A stretch of DNA of 46,634 nt from Lachnospiraceae bacterium (GTDB taxonomy: Bacteria; Bacillota; Clostridia; Lachnospirales; Lachnospiraceae), in contig JAFUPV010000066.1 of NCBI GenBank assembly GCA_017472605.1, forward strand, positions 1 to 46,634, given 5' to 3'. Each line of letters begins with the position of its first letter. Positions within the stretch are counted from its first letter, which is position 1. The notes under the pieces are model-generated. The model was not told where the DNA came from. It saw only the letters and a program-made list of their open reading frames with translations, and made no database searches. The position numbers were made by a program, and so were the translations under genes. Positions 4,338 through 33,075 of this stretch are shown one piece after another.

Positions 4338-4387
4338 ACAGAAAGAAATCGGAGGTGAAGAATGACTCACCTCCGATTTCTTTCTGT
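4338..4387. terminator. Perfect 21-bp inverted repeat between convergent genes (bidirectional terminator)
   Basis: Arms 4338-4358 and 4367-4387 are exact reverse complements around an 8-nt loop. The right arm contains the last codons and TGA of the ANTAR gene on the minus strand. On either strand the 3' arm ends in a T/C-rich tract, TTTCTTTCTGT, rather than a pure T run. The position between convergent genes suggests a shared terminator. Confidence 0.65.
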
Positions 4388-4966
4388 ATAAGTCTTTATA
4401 ATATCCTCTGCTACACAACGTTTTGAAGAACAGGAATCCATCGCCCGTTTCTCAATGTAGCGGTGGGCATCCGGCTCGCTCATGTTAAGTTCGCTGATCA
4501 GAAGCCACTTGGCCCGGTTTACAATGCGGATTTCCTCCATTTTTTTCTCAATGGACAGTGTTTTCTTCTCAAAATGGCGCAGGTGTTCTCTGGAACTGAT
4601 CATCCAGCTTAAAGCAATCGCCATAGTCGGTTTGGAAGTTGGCTTTTCCAGAGTAAAGACACCGTGAATTGCAACTTTGTTATAAATATCATCATGAATA
4701 TCATTGCGGACAACAAGAAGAACGACGGTTTCTCTGTCTGAACAGACATCAATCGCAAAACGGATTCCCGGATCATCCGACAGCGGTGAATTGATCAGAA
4801 CAAAGTCATAGGGCCGATCCGCAATTGCTCTTCTTATGGAACTGATGTTCGAGATGGTCCGGATCGGATAGTAAAAAGACTCGGGAAGCAGAGATGCCAG
4901 ATTGGTATTAAAATTCTCTGCCGCTGATACGACAAGAATACTGTAAGTTCGTTCTTGCAAGCTCAT
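4367..4966 (-). CDS. ANTAR-domain antitermination response regulator (GlnR/NitR-like)
   Basis: A 199-residue protein with an N-terminal receiver-like domain (SILVVSAAEN through FTLEKPTSKPT), a short coiled linker (HLRHFEKKTLSIEKKMEEI) and a C-terminal ANTAR RNA-binding domain (IRIVNRAKWLLI, then SEPDAHRYIEKRAMD). ANTAR proteins bind paired RNA hairpins and prevent terminator formation. The receiver is atypical: where a phospho-acceptor Asp is expected the sequence reads DFVLINSPLSD, so phosphorylation is uncertain. It is the last gene downstream of the glutamate synthase/glnA operon. Clostridium saccharobutylicum has a comparable ANTAR gene downstream of glnA. AAGGAG precedes the ATG. Likely targets are the two leaders at 9.8-10.1 kb. 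Confidence 0.9.
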   Translation of the reverse strand: MSLQERTYSILVVSAAENFNTNLASLLPESFYYPIRTISNISSIRRAIADRPYDFVLINSPLSDDPGIRFAIDVCSDRETVVLLVVRNDIHDDIYNKVAIHGVFTLEKPTSKPTMAIALSWMISSREHLRHFEKKTLSIEKKMEEIRIVNRAKWLLISELNMSEPDAHRYIEKRAMDSCSSKRCVAEDIIKTYTERNRR

Positions 4967-4992
4967 GCAGCGTTTCTCCTTTTAGCTGTTCT

Positions 4993-5126
4993 TACATCCA
5001 GACGAACATGCCTGTGACACGTTCGATCGGATTGTTCCTACATCCAGGCGAACGTGCCTGTGACACGTTCGATCGGATTGTTCCTACATCCAGGCGAACG
5101 TGCCTGTGACACGTTCGATCGGATTG
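4993..5126 (-). repeat. Three tandem 46-bp hairpin repeats between glnA and the ANTAR gene
   Basis: Units start at 4993, 5039 and 5085 with an exact 46-nt period; the last is cut at 42 nt. Each contains CGAACGTG and CACGTTCG separated by 7 nt. Copies 2 and 3 are identical over their shared length. Copy 1 differs at two bases, one in the stem, where it gives a G-U pair in minus-strand RNA but an A-C mismatch in plus-strand RNA. The array begins 2 nt after the glnA stop and ends 26 nt before the ANTAR start codon. There are no unique spacers, so it is not a CRISPR. Confidence 0.9.
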
Positions 5127-5128
5127 AC

Positions 5129-6340
5129 TTATTGGCAGCAATAAATATCCAGAATTTCAGCAGGGACATGTTCTTTGATGAATTCACTCTGAGCAGCTGC
5201 GGCACAGGCCTGAGCGCGGTTTTTCGGCAGCTGCCTGTAGGTCGCAAGCGTCTGCGGATCTGCCTTAAAGAGGTTAAAATCAGCGGCGGGCGGAAGGGGA
5301 AGATGATGTTCAATCCCGTACAGTGCCGCATAGATCATCAGAGTAAAAGCCAGATAGGGATTGGCAGAAGGATCCGGAGAGCGGAGTTCGGCGCGGCGGT
5401 ATTCTCCTGCAGCCGCAGGAACACGAATCAGCTGAGAGCGGTTTTCACTGGACCAAGAGATATATCCCGGAGCCTTGTTTTTACCAAAGCGTTCATAGGA
5501 ATTATCGCTGGGATTCAGAAAAGCAGTCATATCCTCCACTTTATCCAGAATTCCTGCGATCACTTGAGGAAGAAGATCACGGTCGTCATTGGCTTTTACA
5601 GAGATGTTAATGTGAAAGCCGCTGCCGGGCTTATCCTCAAGAGGCTTCGGACTGAAATCGGCATAAAGACCATTATGTCCCGCAACTGTTTTTACAATGG
5701 TCTGGAACGTCATTGCATTATCGGCGGCAGACAGCGGATCAGAATAGCGGAAATCAATTTCATTCTGACCCGGTCCCTCTTCATGGTGAGAACTTTCCGG
5801 ACGGATGCCCATCTGGGAAAGGGTCAGGCAGATTTCACGGCGGATGTTTTCTCCTTTGTCATCCGGTGCAAGATCCATATAGCCGGCATTATCATAAGGG
5901 ATCTTTGTCCGTTTCCCGTTGTCGTCCAGCTGAAACAGATAAAATTCCTGTTCGGCGCCAAAGGAAAACCGGTATCCTGCTTTCCCAGCAGTTTCAATCG
6001 CCTGGATCAGAAGAGTTCTGGTGTCACATTCGAAGGGTCTTCCATCCGGATAGGAGATGGTGCAGAACATGCGGACCACGCGTCCATGTTCCGGACGCCA
6101 GGGCAAAATCATCAGTGTGGCAGCATCCGGATGAAGGAGCAGGTCGGAATGGGTCTCATCACCAAATCCGTCAATGGCAGAACCGTCAATGGCAATTCCC
6201 TGCTCAAAGGCACGGGGAAGCTCCTGGGGCATGATGGAAATGTTCTTCTGCCTTCCAAAAACATCGCAGAATGCAAGACGAATAAACTTTACATCTTCTT
6301 CCTCAACGAACTGGATAACCTCCTGTCGCAAATATTTCAT
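5129..6340 (-). CDS. glnA: Glutamine synthetase, type I-like, short C-terminus
   Basis: ATP-dependent ligase making glutamine from glutamate and ammonium. Core motifs are in order: GAEQEFYLF (glutamate and metal binding), HHEEGPGQNEIDF, GSGFHINIS, the ATP-binding stretch around NSYERFGKNKAPGYISW with ENRSQLIRVP, and AELRSPDPSANPYLAF. At 403 residues it is shorter than the usual 440-470: it stops at ILDIYCCQ, where relatives continue for about 30 residues, and the 46-bp repeat array begins 2 nt later. GAAAGGAAAG precedes the ATG. It is the fourth gene of the glutamate synthase operon, so the GS/GOGAT pair is co-expressed. A second, type III enzyme is encoded divergently. Confidence 0.92.
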   Translation of the reverse strand: MKYLRQEVIQFVEEEDVKFIRLAFCDVFGRQKNISIMPQELPRAFEQGIAIDGSAIDGFGDETHSDLLLHPDAATLMILPWRPEHGRVVRMFCTISYPDGRPFECDTRTLLIQAIETAGKAGYRFSFGAEQEFYLFQLDDNGKRTKIPYDNAGYMDLAPDDKGENIRREICLTLSQMGIRPESSHHEEGPGQNEIDFRYSDPLSAADNAMTFQTIVKTVAGHNGLYADFSPKPLEDKPGSGFHINISVKANDDRDLLPQVIAGILDKVEDMTAFLNPSDNSYERFGKNKAPGYISWSSENRSQLIRVPAAAGEYRRAELRSPDPSANPYLAFTLMIYAALYGIEHHLPLPPAADFNLFKADPQTLATYRQLPKNRAQACAAAAQSEFIKEHVPAEILDIYCCQ

Positions 6341-6366: not shown

Positions 6367-7086
6367 TTAATTTGCTACATACATCTGTCTGTATGGATTG
6401 CTGCTGTCCGGCGTAACGACGGTAAAGGTTTCCTGTAAAATTTCATCCAGCGGATATCCGAATAATTCACAGAATTCGCTCAGATAGTCCCTGATCGCAA
6501 CTAACGTGTCCCCTGCTGCCGTTTTTGTGGTGACCTGTCCCGGAAAACGAACCCGGCTGCAGTCACCCCGCAGGTACATGGTTCCGCCATGCATACCGGT
6601 GCACGGAAAATTGCCGACAATCTTCTTTCCGTCTGTACCAAGACCAAGAACAATAATAATTCCGCCGGCCTGGTATTCGCCCAGAAAGCTGCCGGCAGTA
6701 CCGCCGATTACCATCACCGGCACCTTCTCCCGGTATGCTTTCATGTGAATACCGGCGCGGTAGCCTGCGTTCCCTTTCACAAAGATATGACCGCCCCGCA
6801 TGGCATAGCCGGCCGCGTCACCAATGTTTCCGTGGATGATGATCGTTCCGTCGTTCATTGTATCGCCGACAGCGTCCTGGGCATTTGCATGTACCGTGAT
6901 CTGAGCGCCGTTAAGATAAGCGCCGAGGGCGTTTCCGGGAATTCCGCTGACGGTAATGGAACGGCCGGAAATACCGGCACCGATGAAACGCTGTCCGCAG
7001 CAGTTGGTAATGGTGCAGTCACCATTGCTGTCGCGAAGAACCTGATTCAGTTCTGTATATTCATAATTCAAAGCATTAATTACCAT
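6367..7086 (-). CDS. Glutamate synthase GXGXG (alpha C-terminal) module
   Basis: A stand-alone version of the C-terminal GXGXG beta-helix domain of glutamate synthase, with repeated GN/GD-A-G turns such as GNIGDAAGYAMRGGHI and GNAGYRAGIHMK and a late GGTMYLRG. In split, archaeal-type enzymes this part supports the FMN subunit structurally. ATG 7086 is preferred because GGGAGG lies 9 nt upstream and MVINALNYEYTELN resembles the usual N-terminus. An alternative ATG at 7110 overlaps the upstream stop as ATGA. About 239 residues, normal for a separate module. Confidence 0.9.
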   Translation of the reverse strand: MVINALNYEYTELNQVLRDSNGDCTITNCCGQRFIGAGISGRSITVSGIPGNALGAYLNGAQITVHANAQDAVGDTMNDGTIIIHGNIGDAAGYAMRGGHIFVKGNAGYRAGIHMKAYREKVPVMVIGGTAGSFLGEYQAGGIIIVLGLGTDGKKIVGNFPCTGMHGGTMYLRGDCSRVRFPGQVTTKTAAGDTLVAIRDYLSEFCELFGYPLDEILQETFTVVTPDSSNPYRQMYVAN

Positions 7087-7106
7087 AAATTGATACCTCC
7101 CGGATT

Positions 7107-8114
7107 TCATTCGCCAGCATGTGAGATTCCCAGAATCTCCAGTTCCTTCTGGGTCAGTCCGATACCGCGCAGCATCAGGCGGTTGCCCCGCAGAGCTTCA
7201 ATGGAGTTGATACCCATTCCGCCCAGCAGCTCCTTAATCTCGTGTTTCCAGGCGGTCATCAGGTTGATAAGGCGCTCACTTCCGACATCCGGATTCAGGC
7301 GCCTGACCAGTTCCGGACGCTGGGTAGCAATTCCCCAGTTGCATTTGCCGCTCTGGCAGGTGCGGCAGAGATGACAGCCAAGAGCAAGGACGGCGGCAGT
7401 TGCCACATAACAGGCATCTGCGCCAAGGGCCACCGCTTTTACCACGTCTGCGGCGCTGCGGATGCTTCCGCCCACTACCAGAGAAACGCTATTACGGATT
7501 CCCTCATCACGGAGACGCTGATCGACAGCAGCAAGAGCCAGTTCAATGGGAATACCAACATTGTCACGGATCCTGGTCGGCGCGGCACCGGTACCGCCGC
7601 GGAAACCATCAATGGCAATGATATCAGCTCCGCTTCTGGCGATACCGCTGGCAATAGCGGCAATGTTATGGACGGCGGCAACCTTTACAATGACAGGCTT
7701 TTTATATTCCGTTGCTTCTTTCAGAGAGAACACCAGCTGACGCAAATCCTCAATGGAATAGATATCATGGTGAGGAGCGGGAGAGATGGCATCGGAGCCT
7801 TCCGGAATCATTCGTGTGCGGGACACATCGCCGACGATTTTTGCCCCGGGCAGATGACCGCCGATACCGGGTTTTGCGCCCTGACCCATTTTGATTTCAA
7901 TGGCCGCGCCCGCTTCCAGATAATCCTTATGGACACCAAAACGGCCGGAGGCTACCTGGACAATGGTGTGTTCCCCATAGCAGTAAAAATCTTCATGAAG
8001 TCCGCCTTCACCGGTATTATAGCAGATACCAAGCTGAGACGCGGCTCTGGCCAGGGATTCGTGGGCATTGTAGCTGATGGAGCCGTAACTCATGGCTGAG
8101 AACATGACCGGCAT
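7107..8114 (-). CDS. Glutamate synthase FMN-binding domain (C-terminal part of interrupted module 2)
   Basis: TIM-barrel FMN domain that makes glutamate from 2-oxoglutarate and ammonia channelled from the amidotransferase module. Visible: MPVMFSAMSYGSIS, the EIKMGQGAKPGIGGHLPG phosphate-binding region, HHDIYSIEDL, and the Fe-S cysteines CHLCRTCQSGKCNWG. The frame continues upstream through 23 sense codons to an in-frame TAG at 8186-8184, directly joined to the ferredoxin ORF. As annotated here, translation restarts at ATG 8114, which has GGAG 6 nt upstream, and loses about 24 residues of the usual domain start (KRDESGNLICQLEPQLELS). Confidence 0.75.
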   Translation of the reverse strand: MPVMFSAMSYGSISYNAHESLARAASQLGICYNTGEGGLHEDFYCYGEHTIVQVASGRFGVHKDYLEAGAAIEIKMGQGAKPGIGGHLPGAKIVGDVSRTRMIPEGSDAISPAPHHDIYSIEDLRQLVFSLKEATEYKKPVIVKVAAVHNIAAIASGIARSGADIIAIDGFRGGTGAAPTRIRDNVGIPIELALAAVDQRLRDEGIRNSVSLVVGGSIRSAADVVKAVALGADACYVATAAVLALGCHLCRTCQSGKCNWGIATQRPELVRRLNPDVGSERLINLMTAWKHEIKELLGGMGINSIEALRGNRLMLRGIGLTQKELEILGISHAGE

Positions 8115-8183
8115 GGAAAGCTCCAGCTGAGGCTCCAGCTGGCAGATCAGATTGCCGGATTCATCCCGCTTGACAGACTGCGG

Positions 8184-8612
8184 CTATTTGCCAAGGAAAA
8201 CACGTGTCTCCATAGGCTCTCTCAGAGGGTCAATAGGAGGGTTGGTTACCTGAGAGGCATTGATCAGAATTCTGTCCCAATAAACGGGAAGCGGCTTTGG
8301 ATTGCCCATAGAGGAAAGAAGGACGCCGCCACTGTTTGCCTGCTTGTAGATCTCCTGAATGGTATCATTCTGCCAGTTTGCATTTTCACGGAGCGCGCAG
8401 TTGCTTTTTACGATTTTCAGAGCTCTTGTTGGGCAGAAAGAAACACAGCGCTGGCAGTTGACACATTTTGTTTCATCACTGATCAGAATGCCGCGTTCCG
8501 CGTCAAAGCGATGGATCTCATTGGAACACTGCCGTTCACAGAGCCGGCAATGGATGCAGCGGCTGTCATTTCGAATCACTTCAAATTCAGGGTATATAAA
8601 TTGGATACTCAT
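8184..8612 (-). CDS. Glutamate synthase ferredoxin domain (N-terminal part of interrupted module 2)
   Basis: A 142-residue ORF with two [4Fe-4S] motifs, CIHCRLCERQC (about 18-28) and CVNCQRCVSFCP (about 47-58), followed by the linker NPPIDPLREPMETRVFLGK that normally leads into the FMN barrel. It should pass electrons to FMN. Its ATG overlaps the stop of the upstream amidotransferase gene as TGATG, so translation is probably coupled. It ends at a TAG in frame with the next ORF. Confidence 0.75.
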   Translation of the reverse strand: MSIQFIYPEFEVIRNDSRCIHCRLCERQCSNEIHRFDAERGILISDETKCVNCQRCVSFCPTRALKIVKSNCALRENANWQNDTIQEIYKQANSGGVLLSSMGNPKPLPVYWDRILINASQVTNPPIDPLREPMETRVFLGK

Positions 8613-9706
8613 CAGAACGCACCATCCTTTACTTTCACAATCACCGGTTCGCCGCCGGCAGGAGCGAAGATATTCTGCGCATCCGGTTCCATGACGCGGA
8701 TCGCCGCTTCCTCACTGGCAATGAATACCTTGTCATCCTTTTCCCCCACAACCATCGATCGCAGTTTAAGCCGGTCATTCAATGCCATCATTCCGCCGTT
8801 AAAACCAAAGACGATGGAGAATGGACCGGTGATCAGCAGATTGGAAAAGGCGGTACGCAAAAAGAGGTGCTTCTGTTTGTCAGCTTCATCCGTTTTTGCC
8901 TCAATGGTGCTCCAGAACGGAGCCGCGATCACACTTGCCGCCTCATTCAGAGTCAGTCCCTGAACGCGGATCAGGTAATCCATGATATAGGTAATGACTT
9001 CCGTATCCGTCTGAAGGGTGCATTTGTAGCCAAACATTTCAATAAAACGCCGATTGGCATCATAAGAAGAAATTTCTCCATTATGTACGATGGAATAGTC
9101 AAGAAGCGTGAATGGATGAGCGCCTCCCCACCAGCCTGGTGTGTTGGTCGGATAACGGCCGTGTGCTGTCCAGGAATAACCTTCATATTCGTCCAGGCGG
9201 TAAAACACACCCACGTCTTCCGGAAAACCGACTGCTTTAAAGGTTCCCATATTCTTACCGCTGGAAAAGACATAAGCTCCCGGCATGTCGGTATTGATCT
9301 TCATAACTGTTCTGGCGACAAATTCTTTTTCATCCAGCTGCATGGAAGTCAGGACAGATTGAAGCGGCGCAACGAAATAGCGCCATATAACAGGTTCGTC
9401 GGTGATTGCGGGAATCTTTCTGGTCGGAAGTATTTCTGACTTTACAATCTCGAACCGTTCCTTCAAAAAAACTTCACAGTCCTTTCTGGTCGAACGGCTG
9501 TTATAGAAAAGATGTAACGCATAAAAATCCCTGTATTCGGGATATATCCCATATCCGGCAAAACCGCCGCCGAGACCGTTGGAGCGGTCATGCATTGGTT
9601 TCATGGAATTAGCAATCATTTCACCGGACATCCGGTTCCCTTCTTTTGAGATAACGGCAGCAATTGCGCAGCCGGAAGGGATTCTGACTTGACCTTCAAT
9701 TTTCAT
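8612..9706 (-). CDS. Glutamate synthase glutamine amidotransferase module
   Basis: Class II (Ntn-type) glutaminase part of a split glutamate synthase; it should release ammonia from glutamine. Cys13 in IPSGCAIAAV is the likely nucleophile, so the N-terminus must be trimmed or act differently from enzymes with Cys at position 2. Other family marks are HGRYPTNTPGWWGGAHPF, IVHNGEISSYDANR and QTDTEVITYI. Length is 364 residues, normal for the separate module. First gene of the minus-strand operon; GAAAGGAAG precedes the ATG. The operon has no small NAD(P)H-dependent subunit here, so the electron donor must come from elsewhere, for example ferredoxin. Confidence 0.92.
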   Translation of the reverse strand: MKIEGQVRIPSGCAIAAVISKEGNRMSGEMIANSMKPMHDRSNGLGGGFAGYGIYPEYRDFYALHLFYNSRSTRKDCEVFLKERFEIVKSEILPTRKIPAITDEPVIWRYFVAPLQSVLTSMQLDEKEFVARTVMKINTDMPGAYVFSSGKNMGTFKAVGFPEDVGVFYRLDEYEGYSWTAHGRYPTNTPGWWGGAHPFTLLDYSIVHNGEISSYDANRRFIEMFGYKCTLQTDTEVITYIMDYLIRVQGLTLNEAASVIAAPFWSTIEAKTDEADKQKHLFLRTAFSNLLITGPFSIVFGFNGGMMALNDRLKLRSMVVGEKDDKVFIASEEAAIRVMEPDAQNIFAPAGGEPVIVKVKDGAF

Positions 9707-9763
9707 AGGGCTGTCTTCCTTTCAAATAGACTGCGTTACAGAAAGTCTGGAAAAGGCTTCTGT

Positions 9764-9827
9764 AAATAAAAAAGCAGGGGCGTTCATTTCAGATCAGACA
9801 CCATTGTCTGTACTAAAATGAACGCCC
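9764..9827 (-). terminator. Leader terminator of the glutamate synthase operon
   Basis: On the minus strand GGGCGTTCATTT pairs with AAATGAACGCCC, enclosing a smaller hairpin, and is followed by CTGCTTTTTTATTT. It lies between promoter and first gene, so it is an attenuator rather than an end terminator. Its 5' arm overlaps the first ANTAR-type hairpin. Confidence 0.9.
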
Positions 9828-9837
9828 TTGCTCACTT
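9795..9837 (-). promoter_or_regulatory. Paired ANTAR-type RNA hairpins in the glutamate synthase leader
   Basis: Hairpin 1 (9837-9816): AAGTGAGC pairs with GTTCATTT (8 bp with two G-U) around hexaloop AAGGGC. A 5-nt linker follows. Hairpin 2 (9810-9795): CAGAC pairs with GTCTG around hexaloop AATGGT. Both loops have A at position 1 and G at position 4, the published ANTAR-target signature. Hairpin 1 starts at the expected transcription start and shares its loop and 3' arm with the terminator, so the two structures exclude each other. Binding of the ANTAR protein should allow read-through. Confidence 0.75.
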
Positions 9838-9843
9838 GTTTTC

Positions 9844-9872
9844 GTTATACATCGAAGTCGGCATTTTGTCAA
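9844..9872 (-). promoter_or_regulatory. sigma-A promoter of the glutamate synthase-glnA-ANTAR operon
   Basis: Minus strand TTGACA (9872-9867), 17-nt spacer, TATAAC (9849-9844). The predicted start is near 9837, the first base of the ANTAR-type hairpin. It lies back to back with the glnN promoter across about 50 nt of A/T-rich DNA. Confidence 0.85.
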
Positions 9873-9921: not shown

Positions 9922-9950
9922 TTGACACAAAAAAAACAAAGGTGTATTAT
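9922..9950 (+). promoter_or_regulatory. sigma-A promoter of the glnN operon
   Basis: TTGACA (9922-9927), 17-nt spacer, TATTAT (9945-9950). The predicted start is near 9957, just before an AAGGGC-loop hairpin. Confidence 0.87.
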
Positions 9951-9958
9951 GCTGTGCA

Positions 9959-10010
9959 TAAAGGCAAGGGCGTCTTTGAGGCTGGAACTCAAAGGCGCTT
10001 CTTCTTTTTT
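9959..10010 (+). terminator. First leader terminator of glnN with overlapping ANTAR-type hairpin
   Basis: GCGTCTTTGAG (9970-9980) pairs with CTCAAAGGCGC (9988-9998; 11 bp, one U-G), followed by TTCTTCTTTTTT. An alternative hairpin, TAAAGGC with GTCTTTG around hexaloop AAGGGC (9966-9971), uses the same 5' arm. The loop is identical to that in the divergent glutamate synthase leader. A clear second hexaloop hairpin is not seen; a weakly supported AAAGGC loop occurs at 9991-9996. Confidence 0.75.
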
Positions 10011-10059: not shown

Positions 10060-10110
10060 AGGCAAAGGCGTCGTTGGTGTTGTCCGGCACAAAGACGCCT
10101 TTGCCTTTTT
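10060..10110 (+). terminator. Second leader terminator of glnN
   Basis: AGGCAAAGGCGTC (10060-10072) pairs with GACGCCTTTGCCT (10094-10106), followed by TTTT. Its 5' arm contains GGCAAAGGCGTC, an 11/12 match to GGCAAGGGCGTC in the first terminator, and can present an AAAGGC hexaloop on a short stem. The leader thus carries two terminators in series before the glnN start at 10137. Confidence 0.85.
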
Positions 10111-10136: not shown

Positions 10137-12233
10137 ATGGGAACTGTATCGGAATATTTTGGAAGTCTGGTTTTTGATGACAGAGTAATGAAAGCAAAGT
10201 TGTCGGCAGAGGTATACCAGTCGCTCAAAAAGACAATCGATGAGGGCGCAAAGCTGGATCCTGGTGTTGCCAATGCAGTAGCGGCCGCAATGAAGGATTG
10301 GGCAGTTGCCAATGGTGCAACTCACTATACCCACTGGTTCCAGCCCCTGACCGGCATCACAGCCGAGAAGCATGACAGCTTCATTTCCCCGGCACCGGAC
10401 GGCGGTGTGATTATGGAGTTCTCCGGCAAGGAACTGATTAAAGGCGAGCCGGATGCATCTTCCTTCCCCTCCGGCGGACTGAGAGCTACCTTTGAGGCAA
10501 GAGGCTATACCGCATGGGATCCCACCTCCTATGCATTTATTAAAGGAAAAACACTTTGCATTCCTACCGCGTTCTGCTCGTACGGCGGTGAGGCACTGGA
10601 TAAGAAGACACCGCTTCTTCGTTCCATGGAAGCACTGAACAAACAGGCGCTGCGAATTCTTCATCTGTTCGGAAATGACACGGTCAAATGTGTCCGCACT
10701 TCCGTTGGACCGGAGCAGGAATATTTCCTCATTGATAAAGAAATGTATGAGAAACGCCGGGATCTGAAATATACCGGACGAACCCTGTTTGGTGCGAAGC
10801 CGCCAAAGGGACAGGAAATGGATGACCATTACTTCGGCGTCATCAAGCCAAGAGTTGCCGCCTTTATGGAAGAGCTTAACGAAGAACTCTGGAAGCTTGG
10901 TATTCTTGCGAAAACGGAACATAATGAAGTGGCTCCGGCGCAGCATGAGCTGGCTCCCATCTACACCACCACAAATATTGCTACCGACCACAACCAGTTA
11001 ATGATGGAAATCATGCAGAAGGTAGCTGCGAAGCATGGACTGGTATGTCTCCTTCATGAAAAGCCATTTGCCGGCGTAAACGGAAGCGGCAAGCATAATA
11101 ACTGGTCTATTTCCACCGATACCGGCGTAAACCTGTTGTCGCCCGGTGAGACACCATATGAAAATGCCCAGTTCCTCCTGTTCCTCTGCGCAGTCATCAA
11201 GGCTGTGGATGATTATCAGGATCTACTGCGAATCTCCGTTGCAACTGCAGGAAACGATCATCGTCTTGGCGCAAACGAAGCGCCGCCTGCAGTGGTTTCC
11301 ATCTTCCTTGGTGATGAGCTGAACGCGGTTATGAAGGCAATCGAGACGGATACCCCTTACGAGGGAACAAAGAAGAAGCAGATGAAGCTTGGTGTTGATG
11401 TACTTCCCAAATTTAACAGGGATACCACAGACCGCAACCGTACATCCCCCTTTGCTTTCACCGGCAACAAGTTTGAGTTCCGTATGCTTGGTTCCTCCAA
11501 CAGCATCGCCTGCGCAAACATCATGCTGAACACAGCGGTGGCAGAGAGTCTGAAAATCTATGCAGACAGACTGGAGAATGCGGATGATTTCCAGACCGCG
11601 CTTCATGAGATGATCCGCAAGACAATCAAGGATCATAAGCATATCATCTTCAACGGAAATGGTTATGATGACGCATGGATTCAAGAGGCAACCGAAGTTC
11701 GGGGACTGCTGAACTATCGTACAACGCCGGATTGTGTGCCGCATCTTCTGGATAAGAAAAATGTGGATATGCTGACTGCACACAAAGTATTCTCTGAGAC
11801 CGAGCTGAAATCCCGTTACGAGATTACTCTGGAAAATTACTGTAAGACAGTTATGATCGAAGCAAACACCATGGTGGATATGGCAAAGACGGAAATCGCG
11901 CCGGCTGTAGAAACCTATGCGGCAGAAATCGCAAAGGCGGCAGCGGCCAAGAAGACTCTGAATCCGTCACTGGCATGTGTCTATGAGACAGAACTTGTTA
12001 AAAAGCTGTCCAGACTGGTTGACCGGATCGCCCTTCAGACCGATGAGCTGGAAGCAGCACTCCTTGATCTTTCGTCTGCGGAAACCGTTGGAGCCTGCGC
12101 AGATGCAATCCGTGATACCATTCTGGTAAAGATGGGAGAGCTGAGACTTGCGTGTGATGAAGCTGAGACAGTAACCGCGAAGAAATACTGGCCGTTCCCG
12201 ACCTATGGCGATCTGCTGTTTGGGGTAAAATAA
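10137..12233 (+). CDS. glnN: Glutamine synthetase type III
   Basis: Large (698-residue) GSIII-type glutamine synthetase, a dodecameric ligase making glutamine from glutamate and ammonium. Family marks: [10 protein letters not shown] (about 191-200), the [11 protein letters not shown] segment, [10 protein letters not shown] (about 315), [16 protein letters not shown] and [16 protein letters not shown] lies 9 nt before ATG 10137. A longer reading from 10053 would begin inside the leader terminator and is rejected. First gene of a six-gene plus-strand cluster. Expression is probably set by the two leader terminators and the ANTAR protein encoded 5 kb away. Confidence 0.96.
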
Positions 12234-12253: not shown

Positions 12254-13834
12254 ATGTGTTCAATCATGGGTTATTGCGGTAAAAGTGCCGTGTTGAAGAA
12301 ATTTCAGGAAGGATTGGAAGCCACCGTGTCGAGAGGCCCGGATGACTGCCGGATCATCGAAACCGGTAATGGAATCCTTGGCTTTCGCCGTCTGGCAATC
12401 ATGGATCTGTCTCCCCTCGGAATGCAGCCTTTTGAGCTGAATGGAAGCTATGTTGTCTGCAATGGCGAGATCTATGGATTTGAAGCGCTCAGGAACACAC
12501 TGGCAGAAAATTATACCTTTACCAGTGACTCGGACTGTGAGATTCTGCTTCCAATGTACCGGGAATACGGCACTGACATGTTTGCCATGCTGGATGCGGA
12601 ATATGCCTGCATCATTTATGATGGAGAAACCGGTGAATATATAGCGGCAAGAGATCCCATCGGAATCCGTCCCCTCTACTATGGCTATGATAAAGAGGGA
12701 ACGATTGTATTTGCCAGCGAGCCGAAGAATCTGATTGGCCTGGTTGATAAAATTATGCCGTTTCCTCCCGGCCATTATTATAAGGACGGTCAGTTTATCT
12801 GCTACTGCGACATCGCAGCAGTTGATCATGTATTGGAAGATGATCTGGAAACAGTCTGTAGAAACATTCATGAAAAACTGGTTGCCAGTGTGGAAAAACG
12901 TCTGATTGCCGATGCCAAGGTTGGTTTTCTTCTTTCCGGCGGCCTGGATTCGTCTCTTGTATGCGCCATTGCTGCAAAGAAAAGCAAAACACCGATTCGG
13001 ACATTTGCCATTGGCATGAGTGAAGACGCCATTGATTTAAAATACGCAAAACAGGTTGCTGACTTCATCGGAAGCGACCATCAGGAGATCATCATTACGA
13101 AGGATGATGTCCTTAACAGTCTGAAAACAGTCATTCATCTGCTGGGAACCTTCGATATTACAACGATTCGTGCCAGCATGGGAATGTATCTGATCTGTAA
13201 AGCAATCCATGAGCAGACAGATATCCGCGTCCTTCTGACCGGAGAAATTTCCGATGAACTGTTTGGATATAAATATACGGAATTCGCGCCGGATGCAAAA
13301 GCCTTTCAGGAAGAAGCACAGAAGCGGATCCGTGAGCTCCACATGTATGATGTTCTTCGTGCGGACCGATGCATTAGTGTAAACTCTCTGGAAGCAAGAG
13401 TGCCTTTCGGTGATCTTGATTTCGTGAAGTATGTCATGGCAGTAGATCCCAGGCTGAAGCTGAATACCTATGGAAAGGGAAAATACCTGCTGCGTCATGC
13501 CTTCGAGGAAGGCGATTATCTTCCACACGGCATCCTTTGGCGTGAGAAAGCAGCATTTTCCGATGCGGTCGGCCATTCCATGGTTGACTACCTGAAGGAA
13601 TATGCCGAAGAAGCATATTCCGCAGAAGAATTTGAGGAAGGCTGCAAAGCCTATGAGCACGCCCGTCCGTTTACGAAAGAATCCCTGCTTTACCGCGATA
13701 TCTTCGAAGAGTTCTATACGGGACAGGGAGAGATGATCGTGGACTTCTGGATGCCAAACAAATCCTGGGAGGGCTGCAACGTAAATGACCCGTCTGCCCG
13801 TGTGCTGGCGAACTACGGCGACAGCGGAAAGTAA
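12254..13834 (+). CDS. asnB: Asparagine synthetase, glutamine-hydrolysing
   Basis: Makes asparagine from aspartate, ATP and glutamine. It begins MCSIMGYCGK, so Cys2 becomes the N-terminal nucleophile of the class II amidotransferase domain after Met removal. NGEIYGFEAL marks the glutaminase core. The synthetase domain carries the ATP-pyrophosphatase loop LSGGLDSSLVCAI (about residues 228-240) and LTGEISDELFGY. 526 residues, typical of compact AsnB. GAGAGG precedes the ATG, 20 nt after glnN, in the same operon: it spends the glutamine that glnN makes. Confidence 0.96.
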   Translation: MCSIMGYCGKSAVLKKFQEGLEATVSRGPDDCRIIETGNGILGFRRLAIMDLSPLGMQPFELNGSYVVCNGEIYGFEALRNTLAENYTFTSDSDCEILLPMYREYGTDMFAMLDAEYACIIYDGETGEYIAARDPIGIRPLYYGYDKEGTIVFASEPKNLIGLVDKIMPFPPGHYYKDGQFICYCDIAAVDHVLEDDLETVCRNIHEKLVASVEKRLIADAKVGFLLSGGLDSSLVCAIAAKKSKTPIRTFAIGMSEDAIDLKYAKQVADFIGSDHQEIIITKDDVLNSLKTVIHLLGTFDITTIRASMGMYLICKAIHEQTDIRVLLTGEISDELFGYKYTEFAPDAKAFQEEAQKRIRELHMYDVLRADRCISVNSLEARVPFGDLDFVKYVMAVDPRLKLNTYGKGKYLLRHAFEEGDYLPHGILWREKAAFSDAVGHSMVDYLKEYAEEAYSAEEFEEGCKAYEHARPFTKESLLYRDIFEEFYTGQGEMIVDFWMPNKSWEGCNVNDPSARVLANYGDSGK

Positions 13835-13860
13835 TGGAAAATCGGAATAAAGAGAAGGAG

Positions 13861-13880
13861 ACCGCATAATATGCGGTTTT
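13861..13880 (+). terminator. Weak hairpin between asnB and purC
   Basis: ACCGCAT and ATGCGGT pair (7 bp, 3-nt loop) followed by TTTTCCC. A 12-bp perfect palindrome, TTGTTCGAACAA, lies just after at 13887-13898. The hairpin may lower read-through into purC; no promoter is evident here. Confidence 0.4.
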
Positions 13881-13922
13881 CCCTCGTTGTTCGAACAAGT
13901 TGAGAAAGAGAGGTTTATAAAG

Positions 13923-14636
13923 ATGAACAAGAGAGAACAGCTGTATGAAGGAAAAGCAAAGAAGGTTTTTAAGACGGATGATGAAAATCTACTGATTGTG
14001 GATTATAAGGATGACGCGACTGCATTTAACGGTCTGAAAAAGGGAACAATTGCAGGTAAGGGTGTGATCAATAATAAGATGAGCAACCTGCTGATGCAGA
14101 AGATTGAAAAAGAGGGAATTCCGACTCATTTTGTGAAGGAGCTCAGTGACAGAGAGACACTGGTAAAGAAGGTTTCCATTGTCCCTCTTGAAGTGATTAT
14201 CCGAAACATTGCGGCCGGTTCTTTTTCCAAACGCTACGGTGTGGAAGAGGGCGTTGTGTTTGAAGAACCGACAATCGAGTTTTCCTATAAAAACGATGAA
14301 TTGGGCGATCCGCTCTGCAACACATATCATGCCATTGCGCTGAAGCTGGCCACTGCGGATGAAATGGAACGGATTAAGAAATATGCCTTTGGCGTCAATG
14401 AGATTCTGAAGGAATTCTGGAAGGGATGCGGTGTCACTCTGGTTGACTTCAAGCTGGAGTTTGGCAGGCTGGCAGACGGAACCATTGTACTGGCAGACGA
14501 AATCAGCCCGGATACCTGTCGTCTCTGGGATTCCAAAACCGGAGAAAAGCTGGATAAGGACAGATTCCGCCGTGATCTTGGCGGGGTAGAGGATGCTTAT
14601 GCCGAAGTGATGAAGCGGCTGAAAGAGAATATCTGA
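13923..14636 (+). CDS. purC: SAICAR synthase (phosphoribosylaminoimidazole-succinocarboxamide synthase)
   Basis: Joins aspartate to CAIR with ATP in purine synthesis. The start MNKREQLYEGKAKKVFKT, the middle EVIIRNIAAGSFSKRYG and the end-region LVDFKLEFG and DEISPDTCRLWD are characteristic. 237 residues, normal. GAGAGG lies 9 nt before ATG 13923; an upstream in-frame start at 13887 lies in the palindrome and is less likely. It is the only purine gene in the cluster and the only one after glnN that does not use glutamine directly. Confidence 0.95.
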   Translation: MNKREQLYEGKAKKVFKTDDENLLIVDYKDDATAFNGLKKGTIAGKGVINNKMSNLLMQKIEKEGIPTHFVKELSDRETLVKKVSIVPLEVIIRNIAAGSFSKRYGVEEGVVFEEPTIEFSYKNDELGDPLCNTYHAIALKLATADEMERIKKYAFGVNEILKEFWKGCGVTLVDFKLEFGRLADGTIVLADEISPDTCRLWDSKTGEKLDKDRFRRDLGGVEDAYAEVMKRLKENI

Positions 14637-14642
14637 GCTTAA

Positions 14643-17369
<2,727 letters not shown>

Positions 17370-17377
<8 letters not shown>

Positions 17378-20300
17378 AAGAACGGATATCAAAAAGATTC
17401 TTGTGATTGGCTCCGGACCAATTGTGATCGGTCAGGCCGCGGAATTCGATTATGCCGGAACGCAGGCCTGTCTTGCACTGAAGGAAGAAGGGTATGAGGT
17501 CATTCTCTGTAATTCCAATCCGGCAACAATTATGACTGACCCGTCCATCGCGGATAAAGTGTATATGGAACCGCTGACTCTGGAATACATTGCAAAAATT
17601 ATCCGCTATGAGCGTCCCGATGCGATTCTGCCCGGAATCGGCGGACAGACAGGACTGAATCTGGCGATGCAGCTGGAAAAGAAAGGTGTGCTGGCAGAGT
17701 GCCGTGTGGAGCTGTTAGGAACAAAAAGCAGCAGCATTGAGCGAGCGGAAGACCGCGAACTGTTTAAGGAGCTTTGCGAAAGTCTTGGTGAGCCGGTACT
17801 GCCTTCTGATATTGCCAATTCCATAGAAGAAGGAATCCGGGTGGCGGAAAAAATCGGCTATCCGGTGGTTCTTCGTCCGGCGTTTACGCTTGGCGGAACA
17901 GGCGGCGGTTTTGCTGACAATGAGGAAGAGCTGCTTCCGTTAATGAAAAACGCCCTGATGCTGTCCCCGGTCAGACAGGTGCTGATTGAAAAGAGCATGA
18001 AAGGCTTCAAGGAAATTGAATATGAGGTCATGCGTGACAGAAACGACACCGCAATTACCATCTGTAACATGGAAAATCTGGATCCGGTTGGCATTCATAC
18101 CGGTGATTCCATCGTCGTATGCCCATCGCAGACACTGACCAATAAAGAATATCAGATGCTTCGTGACAGTGCATTGAAAATCATCCGCGCGCTGGAGATT
18201 GAAGGCGGCTGCAACGTTCAGTTCGCCCTGGATCCCAACTCCTTCCAGTATTACCTGATTGAAGTAAACCCCAGAGTATCCCGCTCTTCTGCCCTGGCTT
18301 CAAAAGCCAGCGGTTATCCCATCGCCCGTGTATCGGCGAAAATCGGAGTCGGCATGACTATGGATGAGATTCCCATTGCCAACACACCTGCTTCTTTTGA
18401 ACCGGCGCTGGATTATGTTGTGACAAAAATGCCCCGGTTCCCCTTTGATAAATTTACCGATGCCAACAATTCGTTAAGCACCCAGATGAAGGCGACCGGT
18501 GAGGTCATGAGTGTGGGAAGAACGGTGGAAGAGAGTCTGCTGAAAGCCATCCGTTCTCTGGAAATCGGTCTGTATCATCTTCACAGCCCCAAGTTTGATG
18601 AAATGGGTGAAAAGGAGCTGCTGGATTATATTCAGATTGGTACAGACGACCGAATTTACGCCATTGCTCAGCTGCTTCGAAACGGATGCAGTGAAAAGAA
18701 AATCGTCCGCGGCACTGCCATTGATCCGTTCTTCATCCGGAAGATGAAGAATATCGTGGAAGAAGAACAGGAGCTGAAGGAAAATCCGGGAAATCCGAAA
18801 ATTCTGAGGAAAGCAAAGAAGATGGGATTTTCTGACCGGGTCATTGCAAAATATTGGGGAATGAAGGAAAGGGAAGTGTATCAGCTGCGCAGACAGCTGG
18901 GGATCGTTCCGGTCTACAAAATGATTGATACCTGCGCGTCTGAATTTGAAAGCTACATTCCCTATTTCTACTCCACGTATGAGGAGGAAAATGAATCCAT
19001 TGTTTCCGATAAAAAGAAGGTGATCGTTCTTGGCTCCGGCCCCATCCGAATCGGTCAGGGCGTGGAGTTTGACTATTCAACGGTTCATGCGGTAAAGACC
19101 ATTAAAGCCGCCGGATATGAGGCGATTATCATTAACAACAATCCGGAGACCGTTTCGACCGATTATACCTGTTCTGACAAGCTGTATTTTGAACCGCTGT
19201 GTACAGAAGACGTGATGCATGTGATTGAGCTGGAACAGCCGGTTGGCGTGATCGCGACTCTGGGCGGTCAGACAGCAATCAACCTGGCAGAAACGCTGCG
19301 GGAGCATGGTGTAACAATTATCGGTACGGACTGCGATGCCATTGATCGCGCGGAAAACCGTGATCTGTTTGAAAAACTGCTGGTATCCCTGGAAATTCCT
19401 CAGCCGAAGGGGCAGGCAGTTACTAATATTGAAGACGGTGTGAAAGCAGCGGAAGAAATCGGTTATCCGGTTCTGGTACGGCCAAGTTTCGTTCTTGGCG
19501 GACGCGCCATGCAGATTGTCGCGAAGGAAGAGCACCTGCGTCATTATCTGAAAACAGCGGTTGAAATTGATGAAGATAAGCCTGTGTTGGTGGATCGATA
19601 TATCCGCGGCAAGGAAGTGGAAGTAGACGCGATCTGTGATGGCAGTCAGGTCTTTGTTCCGGGAATCATGGAACTGGTAGAGCGGACCGGAATTCACTCC
19701 GGCGATTCCATCAGTGTATATCCCCCTTACAGCATTTCCGATCGGGTGAAGGAAACCATCCTTGATTATACCAGAAAGCTGGGACTGGGAATCGGTATTG
19801 TGGGACTCTTTAACATCCAGTTTATTGTGGATGAAAACGAGAACGTATATATTATAGAAGTAAACCCGCGGTCTTCCAGAACCGTTCCGTTTCTGTCCAA
19901 AGCCACAGGATACAGTCTGGCCGATATGGCGACGCTTGTGATCCTGGGAAAGAGTCTGAAAGAACAGGGGATCACAGAACTGTACGCCAGAGAAAAGGAA
20001 CGGTATTATGTAAAGGCACCGGCATTTTCCTTCTCCAAGCTGAATGGAATGGATGCCTATCTGTCGCCGGAAATGAAGTCCACCGGTGAAGCCATCGGAT
20101 ATGATCAAAAGCTGCACCGGGCGATGTATAAAGCGCTGATCGCGTCCGGTGTCAGAGTTCAGAATTACGGAACGGTTACGGTTACGTTAGCAGATGAAGA
20201 CAAGGAAGAAGCGCTGCCTTTGATCCGCCGTTTCTATCAGATGGGCTTCAACATCGAAGCTACCATTGGTACAGCCAATTTCCTGAAGGAACATGGAATC

Positions 20301-20549
20301 CGTACCAGAGTCCGCCGCAAACTCAGTGAGGGAAGCGAGGAAATTCTGGAATCCATCCGTGCCGGTTATGTCAGCTATGTGATTAACACACGTGCAGTCC
20401 TGTCCGGAATTCACTATGAAGACGGCATTGCCATCCGGCGCGCGGCCTGCCAGAATAACATTACTATGCTGACTTCGCTGGATACGGTAAAAGTTTTACT
20501 GGATGTACTGGAGGAAACGACGATCGGTATTTCTACGATAGACGCATAA
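17370..20549 (+). CDS. carB: Carbamoyl-phosphate synthase large subunit
   Basis: Makes carbamoyl phosphate from bicarbonate, ammonia and 2 ATP. The two duplicated ATP-grasp halves are clear: [19 protein letters not shown] near residue 10 and [19 protein letters not shown] near 555, with ATP-grasp segments [12 protein letters not shown] and [12 protein letters not shown]. An MGS-like regulatory domain ends the protein ([14 protein letters not shown] through INTRA). 1059 residues, normal. Last gene of the glnN cluster, followed by a strong terminator. Confidence 0.97.
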
Positions 20550-32861: not shown

Positions 32862-33075
32862 TGTTTGAGCCGTATGGCGAAAACAGTTGCCGAAGACAGC
32901 AGGTGCCGAATGGCGTAAGATGAGATCGCCTGCCGAGGAGATAAGTTTTTTGATAAAGACTATCGATGCTCCCTGCCTTCGTGCGCAGAGGGCTTTTTTT
33001 CGGCCATCTTTTTGGATCTGTGCAAATGGATCCGGTTCGGTTGGAAAACCGGACAAAAAATAAAAAAAGGAGGGC
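32862..33075 (+). promoter_or_regulatory. L10-type ribosomal protein leader upstream of rplJ
   Basis: A structured leader of roughly 210 nt between promoter and rplJ, ending with an intrinsic terminator (32968-33000) and a long spacer before AAAAAAAGGAGGG. It has the position and size of the L10 leader, in which the L10(L7/L12) complex binds its own mRNA. In Bacillus subtilis that leader works by transcription attenuation, which the terminator here would allow. I identify it from context; the kink-turn was not mapped base by base. Confidence 0.7.
32968..33000 (+). terminator. Attenuator terminator in the rplJ leader
   Basis: GCTCCCTGC (32968-32976) pairs with GCAGAGGGC (32985-32993) with one mismatch, followed by seven T. 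It lies 83 nt before the rplJ start codon. Confidence 0.8.

Follow-up and report, generated by a model that had tools for sequence, protein, structure and literature searches.

The window, by which we mean the whole stretch of DNA analysed (46,634 nt, contig JAFUPV010000066.1 of a Lachnospiraceae bacterium), carries two gene strings that diverge from one intergenic region (Table 1). On the minus strand, three subunits of a split glutamate synthase are followed by a type I glutamine synthetase (GSI) and the gene for an ANTAR regulator; an earlier note, made from the sequence alone, had placed an ANTAR gene last in this string, and the Pfam match bears this out. On the plus strand, a type III glutamine synthetase (GSIII) is followed by closely spaced asnB, purC, pyrG, carA and carB. 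The earlier note missed that this second string is preceded by an attenuator of the same kind.

Table 1. Features of the divergent glutamate synthase and glutamine synthetase operons, with window positions
Feature	Position	Strand	Basis
Sigma-70-type promoter: TTGACA 9872-9867, 17-nt spacer, TATAAC 9849-9844	9844-9872	-	Read from sequence
P1, predicted ANTAR-type antiterminator hairpin, AAGTGAGC[AAGGGC]GTTCATTT, 8 bp, C:G closing pair	9816-9837	-	Sequence, fold, relatives, covariance model
P2, second A1/G4 hairpin, CAGAC[AATGGT]GTCTG, in terminator apex	9795-9810	-	Folds, covariance model R1
Intrinsic terminator; 5' arm = P1 loop and 3' arm; T-run 9773-9768	9768-9833	-	Folds
gltA-like glutamine amidotransferase subunit of split glutamate synthase	8612-9706	-	Pfam GATase_2 5.8e-11
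Ferredoxin-domain and FMN (Glu_synthase) subunit	7107-8612	-	Pfam Fer4 2.2e-10, Glu_synthase 9.8e-129
Glutamate synthase GXGXG subunit	6367-7110	-	Pfam GXGXG 1.8e-26
Type I glutamine synthetase (GSI), directly 5' of ANTAR gene	5129-6340	-	Pfam Gln-synt_C 3.3e-83
ANTAR regulator; receiver-like N-terminus (Asn59 at phospho-acceptor position); AHRYIEKRAMD	4367-4966	-	Pfam ANTAR 1.8e-14
Divergent-operon promoter: TTGACA, 17 nt, TATTAT	9922-9950	+	Consensus scan, 11/12 bases; such matches at chance number regionally
Divergent P1, TAAAGGC[AAGGGC]GTCTTTG, stem 9959-9978, overlaps terminator	9958-9979	+	R1 23.7 bits
Divergent-leader terminator hairpin, then T-rich run	9968-10000	+	Consensus scan
Second, strong terminator; 5' arm holds weaker P1-like hairpin GGC[AAAGGC]GTC, 3 bp	10061-10110	+	Sequence, fold
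Type III glutamine synthetase (GSIII), probable start 10137	10137-12233	+	Pfam GSIII_N 4.3e-81, frame taken from 10053
asnB 12254-13834, purC 13887-14636, pyrG 14655-16283, carA 16280-17377, carB 17370-20549	12254-20549	+	Pfam

From gltA to the ANTAR gene, a consensus scan gives two weak terminator-like sites only on the minus strand, at 9543 and 7406, both intragenic; this silence lends a single transcript weak support, because the same scan missed the leader terminator. The closed loop proposed in the earlier note, in which the ANTAR protein would act on the leader of a unit containing its own gene, is plausible. An in-frame TAG (8184-8186, minus strand) splits the ferredoxin-FMN subunit into two reading frames; the subunit is one open frame in 30 of 30 relatives having both parts, and the TAG may be a sequencing error, a lesion or a strain difference. 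Between GSI and the ANTAR gene (4987-5126) lie three 46-bp tandem copies, each hairpin-capable (CGAACGTG/CACGTTCG), which are possibly an mRNA processing or stability element. Elsewhere in the window Rfam places a T-box leader at 685-931 and a ribosomal protein L10 leader at 32872-33008, both on the plus strand.

The gltA leader is compact: P1 starts 6 nt past the -10 TATAAC, and a 5-nt linker (TAGTA) separates it from P2, whose loop is of the AANGGY type with a C:G closing pair. The two minus-strand hairpins of the earlier note, with hexaloops AAGGGC and AATGGT that both have A at position 1 and G at position 4 (A1 and G4), hold up in the sequence and in the fold of 9790-9840, where both form (-14.0 kcal/mol, z -2.16; 6 of 200 shuffles equal or better). 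Its placing of the first hairpin at the predicted transcript start, with loop and 3' arm doubling as the 5' arm of a terminator, is likewise correct: once the downstream part is included (9754-9840), the terminator replaces P1 (-39.7 kcal/mol, z -7.96; 0 of 200 shuffles equal or better). P2, in contrast, persists in that fold, nested at the terminator apex, where it is drawn with 6 bp and a tetraloop. Only P1, then, is incompatible with the terminator; the proposal that the double hairpin excludes the terminator therefore stands for P1 and falls for P2.

The simple consensus scan listed neither the gltA-leader promoter, because TATAAC is without the final T, nor its terminator, because the loop is too long for the scan rules. 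No Rfam family matched the leader at gathering score, and low-score matches below that level were taken as chance. A covariance model of P1 (R1) scores the window P1 at 26.6 bits (E 0.0088), this site being among its training sites, and P2 at 15.6 bits (E 8.1).

The two P1 hairpins of the window share the loop AAGGGC and differ in their stems. Downstream of the plus-strand copy, the longest GSIII frame, from 10053, crosses the second attenuator; judged by eye, the start is therefore probably ATG 10137, with AAAGGAGAG upstream. Tandem P1 attenuators also precede GSIII in two relatives (L007, 3062 and 3135; L013, 1309 and 1383; minus strand), and these resemble the two terminators of the window's divergent leader.

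Conservation was examined in 64 loci found by searching genome contigs with the ANTAR protein; going by their titles, almost all are from Clostridia or from unplaced Bacillota, while four are spirochaetes and one carries the label Dehalococcoidales. The gltA leaders are uniform: all 31, the window's own among them, carry an AANGRY loop on a stem of 5 bp or more, whereas dinucleotide-shuffled leaders average 0.013 such hairpins each. Its place is nearly fixed, with 5-9 nt from the -10 to P1 in 27 of the 29 leaders with a -10 scored (31 examined; the window's TATAAC admitted by hand) and exceptions at 3 and 18 nt. In 30 of 31 leaders a terminator incorporates the P1 arm when the best T-run is used; counting by the first T-run, which often lies inside the apical loop, gives 19 of 31. 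In GSIII leaders anchored at residue 28, P1 is present at 4 bp or more in 29 of 32, and the anchoring matters—with the over-called start the count is 12 of 32. Among GSI leaders 16 of 60 pass at 4 bp, 12 of these with a C:G closing pair; the positives are mostly loci where GSI heads the operon, and several other such loci are without P1.

Searches beyond these loci used both patterns and the covariance model. A pattern anchored on TATAAT finds 34 sites in 27 of 391 genomes of the class (reversed-pattern control, 1) and 26 sites in 22 of 295 genomes of the order (control, 2); the window's own two P1 sites fall outside these exact patterns. In the window's own genome, with 150 of 1581 candidates scored, R1 gives 15 matches: 4 lie in the window (P2 included), and the 11 outside it reach 20.3 bits at most. 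Only three scored matches exceed 20.3 bits and all lie in this intergenic region; both window P1 sites were in the training set, and one match is the second divergent terminator in mirror image. Six of the 11 outside matches (C13, C66, C10, C72, C20, C33) were inspected by eye, and none had P1 with a terminator. As an ANTAR-linked marker, R1 alone at E 0.1 proved too noisy (119 of 196 genomes matched) and was dropped.

The genes behind P1 were read at 69 sites, which include opposite-strand neighbour sites and, through shared loci and sister genomes, are not independent; 4 of the 34 class pattern sites, without a locus, were left out. By blastp, 24 sites precede gltA, 15 GSIII, 3 GSI, 3 purC, 2 pyrG and 1 carA; further sites precede purA (1), a Mur ligase (1), glmS-like genes (2), amtB (2) and a P-II gene (1), five of these calls resting on Pfam and the second glmS-like and second amtB on sequence likeness. 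Altogether 55 of 69 sites precede nitrogen or glutamine genes, and 14 precede other or unrecognised genes. Judged from these gene assignments, what the genes have in common is the production, uptake or consumption of ammonium and glutamine.

Published ANTAR targets are pairs of hairpins, and the question is whether P1 and P2 form such a pair here, one recruiting and one antiterminating. The window P2 has the features for it: a C:G closing pair, an AANGGY loop and a linker within the published spacing of 2-25 nt (as given in PMC8164766). By the description in Ramesh 2012 (PMC3369931), a target has two hairpins with similar hexanucleotide loops carrying A1 and G4, the second overlapping the terminator. 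P1 (AAGGGC) and P2 (AATGGT) both have such loops; however, the order is reversed, since here the first hairpin overlaps and excludes the terminator and the second, nested in the apex, does not compete with it. Among 120 distinct P1 attenuators, defined by sequence alone across all loci gathered, a strict second hairpin (C[AANGRY]G) lies inside the attenuator in 4, window included, so that the similar-loop pair is absent from 116. Sixty-three other loop classes together give 5 (Poisson p 1.6e-6), and the second hairpins that exist may thus be selected; under looser criteria a second A1/G4 hexaloop hairpin occurs in 8 of 120, mid-rank among 16 loop classes. The other three strict cases are L052, L094 and L099; L094 and L099 are gltA leaders (of G032 and G101) with the second hairpin nested in the terminator, as in the window. 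A scan requiring two A1/G4 hairpins had found few in relatives, which looked like a refutation; the leaders there carry P1 alone. The earlier note had tied its proposal to related genomes keeping both hexaloops, and of the two it is P1 that they keep. The double hairpin is not the conserved feature; P1 is. We regard paired action as unlikely: from these comparisons the single hairpin appears to be the rule, and the nested second one a rare, perhaps real extra that is present in the window.

A single hairpin is compatible with recent work on EutV. According to the parts of Walshe 2022 (PMC8934654) drawn on here, EutV binding to single hairpins was on a par with that to the pair, the minimal ANTAR motif was redefined as one hexaloop, and a structure-based argument has the ANTAR dimer bind one hexaloop at a time, the first hairpin serving to recruit; on the sequence side P1 fits such a site, with its loop in 31 of 31 gltA leaders and a covarying stem. 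Against it, eutP is described as requiring both hairpins in vivo, and NasR as needing both for full affinity, one alone being bound at about 12 uM (PMC7496416). As far as these sources describe the EutV/eutP system of Enterococcus faecalis (PMC3369931, PMC8934654), P1 shares with it the A1 and G4 hexaloop, a hairpin exclusive with an intrinsic terminator and a resemblance to the eut 13-mer AGCAANGRRGCUY, which overlaps eut terminators. It differs from eutP in position: because transcription starts at P1, there is no room for an upstream recruitment hairpin. In the open literature covered (titles, abstract openings and a few passages, with the Ramesh 2012 supplements and Stutz 2007 outside) we found no description of a single-hairpin ANTAR leader.

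P1 is also associated with the regulator itself. An ANTAR domain was found in 132 of 196 genomes of the order, and twice in the window's own genome (C40:4397-4549 and C6:82103-82240). P1 with an overlapping terminator, strictly defined, occurs in 23 of 36 GSIII leaders from genomes with ANTAR and in 1 of 23 from genomes without (Fisher p 2.5e-6), a statistic that ignores phylogeny and uses leaders hand-picked among the matches listed; the 23 leaders without ANTAR come from 22 genomes, 7 listed as ANTAR-free and 15 simply missing from the list of positives. The exception, G086, is ANTAR-free yet P1-bearing (a 9.7-kb contig, with ANTAR in relatives of its genus). For gltA leaders, obtained from 33 of 34 other genomes (G164, lying at a contig edge, was omitted), the counts are 23 of 31 and 0 of 2 (p 0.085, not significant). 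Thus 13 of 36 GSIII and 8 of 31 gltA leaders of ANTAR genomes fail the strict test, 2 of the latter 8 having P1 with the terminator unscored. In the class, ANTAR is found in 26 of 27 genomes matching the -10 and P1 pattern, against 39 of 53 others hand-picked for size and completeness; the single pattern-positive genome without it, G560, has its match before a gene that is not nitrogen-like by eye. In 18 of the 27, coordinates read by eye put an ANTAR domain on the same contig and strand, at most 10 kb downstream of the match. Of the 61 loci whose ANTAR match is strong, 56 have a GSI gene and 3 a GSIII gene ending no more than 500 nt upstream of ANTAR.

Two observations concern the genome of the window. 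The second ANTAR gene (on C6; L177) has a glutamine-synthetase-like gene upstream and the variant motif AHRYLQKRSMD, and the 4 kb read hold no P1. The order sample holds 21 further genomes of the window's family, and in none of them is there a gltA match at 1e-60, while genomes of other families do have one; the gltA locus may have been gained by transfer or widely lost, or contig C40 may be foreign to the binned assembly (2.58% contamination). Doubt about the origin of the locus leaves the RNA anatomy unaffected.

The window protein is a clear ANTAR protein, with 53.7 bits to PF03861 against a curated cut-off of 27.3, and its N-terminus aligns with receiver domains (PDB 1s8n, 3.2e-10; EutV 6wsh, 0.0022). 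It belongs to a clade that we compared in 39 sequences—the window, 36 of the 64 loci, the C6 protein and G001—in which AHxYIEKRAMD is near-invariant. Compared with EutV, most of these receivers are missing the phospho-acceptor, the position being Asn in 32 of 39 and Asp in 3. EutV numbering was transferred through a gap-free alignment stretch, with the offset of two chosen so that Tyr164 and Met172 matched. Of the EutV RNA-contact residues, Met172 is kept in 39 of 39, the positions of Lys143 and Lys147 are mostly basic, and Arg175 is retained in 21; Tyr164 (His in 39 of 39), Arg168 (Glu in 38), Asn173 (Asp in 39) and Arg177 are not conserved. Judging by these substitutions, the protein side of recognition differs from EutV, as does the RNA side.

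These differences, together with the correlative nature of the ANTAR linkage, leave some room for P1 being read by another RNA-binding protein or by a small molecule. Against such a factor stand the adjacency of regulator and operon, the contrast between genomes with and without ANTAR, and the loop itself: the NasR SELEX consensus, as given in PMC7496416, is a C:G closing pair with A1 and G4, and P1 has all three, before nitrogen genes as in the nasF leader of Klebsiella oxytoca. The lack of an Rfam family at gathering score and the small size of the element, too small for a typical riboswitch, also weigh against it, and we consider a non-ANTAR reader rather improbable.

The stems of P1 bear on whether it has a function of its own. 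They vary widely (TGAGC/GTTCA, AAAGGC/GTCTTT, CAGC/GCTG, GCGGAC/GTCCGC, GCAAC/GTTGC) and covary. Sixty-nine P1 sites gathered for the alignment reduce to 54 distinct 22-mers, of which two (L016:3783-3804 and L027:6357-6378) were dropped by eye to give an alignment of 52 rows (alignment A1). Its covariation score is 0.587, against 0.259 (sd 0.025) in shuffles and 0.194 in the best slid control; cells changed on both sides number 68 against 29.4, and column pair 5-18 alone has GC 26, CG 15 and AU 11. Two of five measures do not exceed shuffles (both-side-change pairs 5 against a mean of 4.9; further pair types 20 against 18.1), and the paired share of 82.1% is biased upward because rows were chosen at 4 bp or more. 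That P1 is the mere foot of a strong terminator, through ordinary attenuation or chance, would agree with the stability of the terminator-containing fold, which exceeds that of P1 alone in all 31 gltA leaders, but is very improbable given that the P1 5' arm, mostly unneeded by the terminator, covaries with the 3' arm and that 22 of 23 GSIII leaders of ANTAR-free genomes have no P1 that overlaps a terminator.

We therefore consider it likely that P1 is a transcript-start antiterminator hairpin for the ANTAR protein of the operon, governing both operons, with one hairpin mostly enough; this reading best explains what was computed, namely the anatomy, exclusivity, conservation, covariation, ANTAR linkage and gene set. 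We infer both the binding of P1 by the ANTAR protein and its direction, read-through when the protein is active. P1 would be the first foldable RNA as RNA polymerase leaves the promoter. Unbound, it would give way to the terminator, which is far more stable and takes over its loop and 3' arm, and transcription would end ahead of gltA; held through its hexaloop (A1, G4 and the C:G closing pair) by active ANTAR protein, it would block the terminator, and the operon would be read. The same hairpin on the opposite strand would control GSIII-asnB-purC-pyrG-carAB, so that a single regulator would act both on the synthesis of glutamine and glutamate and on several genes that consume them. P1 would correspond to the terminator-overlapping hairpin of the classical pair, and a hairpin that is already first out of the polymerase may need no recruiter; the window P2 would be an occasional extra beside it. 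By analogy with NitR, induction under nitrogen limitation is the likely direction. The most speculative of the proposals is that the neighbouring GSI might provide the signal for the ANTAR protein; it is prompted by the receiver mostly lacking a phospho-acceptor and by the adjacency of the GSI gene, which are its entire basis.

In Clostridium saccharobutylicum, nitR adjoins glnA I. Stutz et al. are said to have described, in 2007, ANTAR control of GS/GOGAT by NitR of strain NCP262. NitR is the nearest known system: according to a review (PMC6316151), this ANTAR protein antiterminates genes of the GS/GOGAT cycle when nitrogen is limiting, and the window operon likewise clusters an ANTAR gene with glutamine and glutamate synthase genes, a likeness drawn from the review's description and not from the RNA element. 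The plus-strand GSIII-asnB-purC-pyrG-carAB arm of the window is missing from the NitR descriptions at hand. A Clostridium thermocellum cluster of an ANTAR gene with glutamate synthase genes is mentioned in PMC4676874. Predicted ANTAR targets precede nitrogen genes in Desulfotomaculum reducens (glutamate synthase) and D. acetoxidans, as outlined in Ramesh 2012 (PMC3369931); like the leaders here these are ANTAR-type RNAs before GOGAT or nitrogen genes, partly with an overlapping terminator, but they were found by a two-hairpin model, and the likeness comes from the description and not from a member-by-member comparison. As for signals, NasR is described as responding to nitrate or nitrite (PMC7496416), and its NIT domain is described in PMC3369931.

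The larger finding is best read as predicted ANTAR antitermination of a glutamine regulon in a single-hexaloop variant. A more far-reaching version, which we put forward tentatively, is that a distinct ANTAR subfamily (AHxYIEKRAMD, receiver mostly without a phospho-acceptor, encoded beside glutamine synthetase) may have dropped the recruitment hairpin and left a single first-emerging hexaloop to do both jobs; it might sense glutamine status by contact with the co-encoded glutamine synthetase and antiterminate a regulon with genes for ammonium uptake at one end and for purines, pyrimidines, asparagine and cell-wall precursors at the other.

How widely single-hexaloop ANTAR sites occur in nature was left open in Walshe et al. 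2022, to judge from the passages on this point (PMC8934654). The gltA leaders are a candidate natural single-hexaloop antiterminator—all 31 have the loop, the stems covary and the hairpin keeps its place at the start of the transcript—and they allow a direct test of why two hairpins are required in the systems studied so far. For the bacteria themselves, the findings suggest that a range of Clostridia may run their glutamine economy by antitermination, with the regulator tied to glutamine synthetase.
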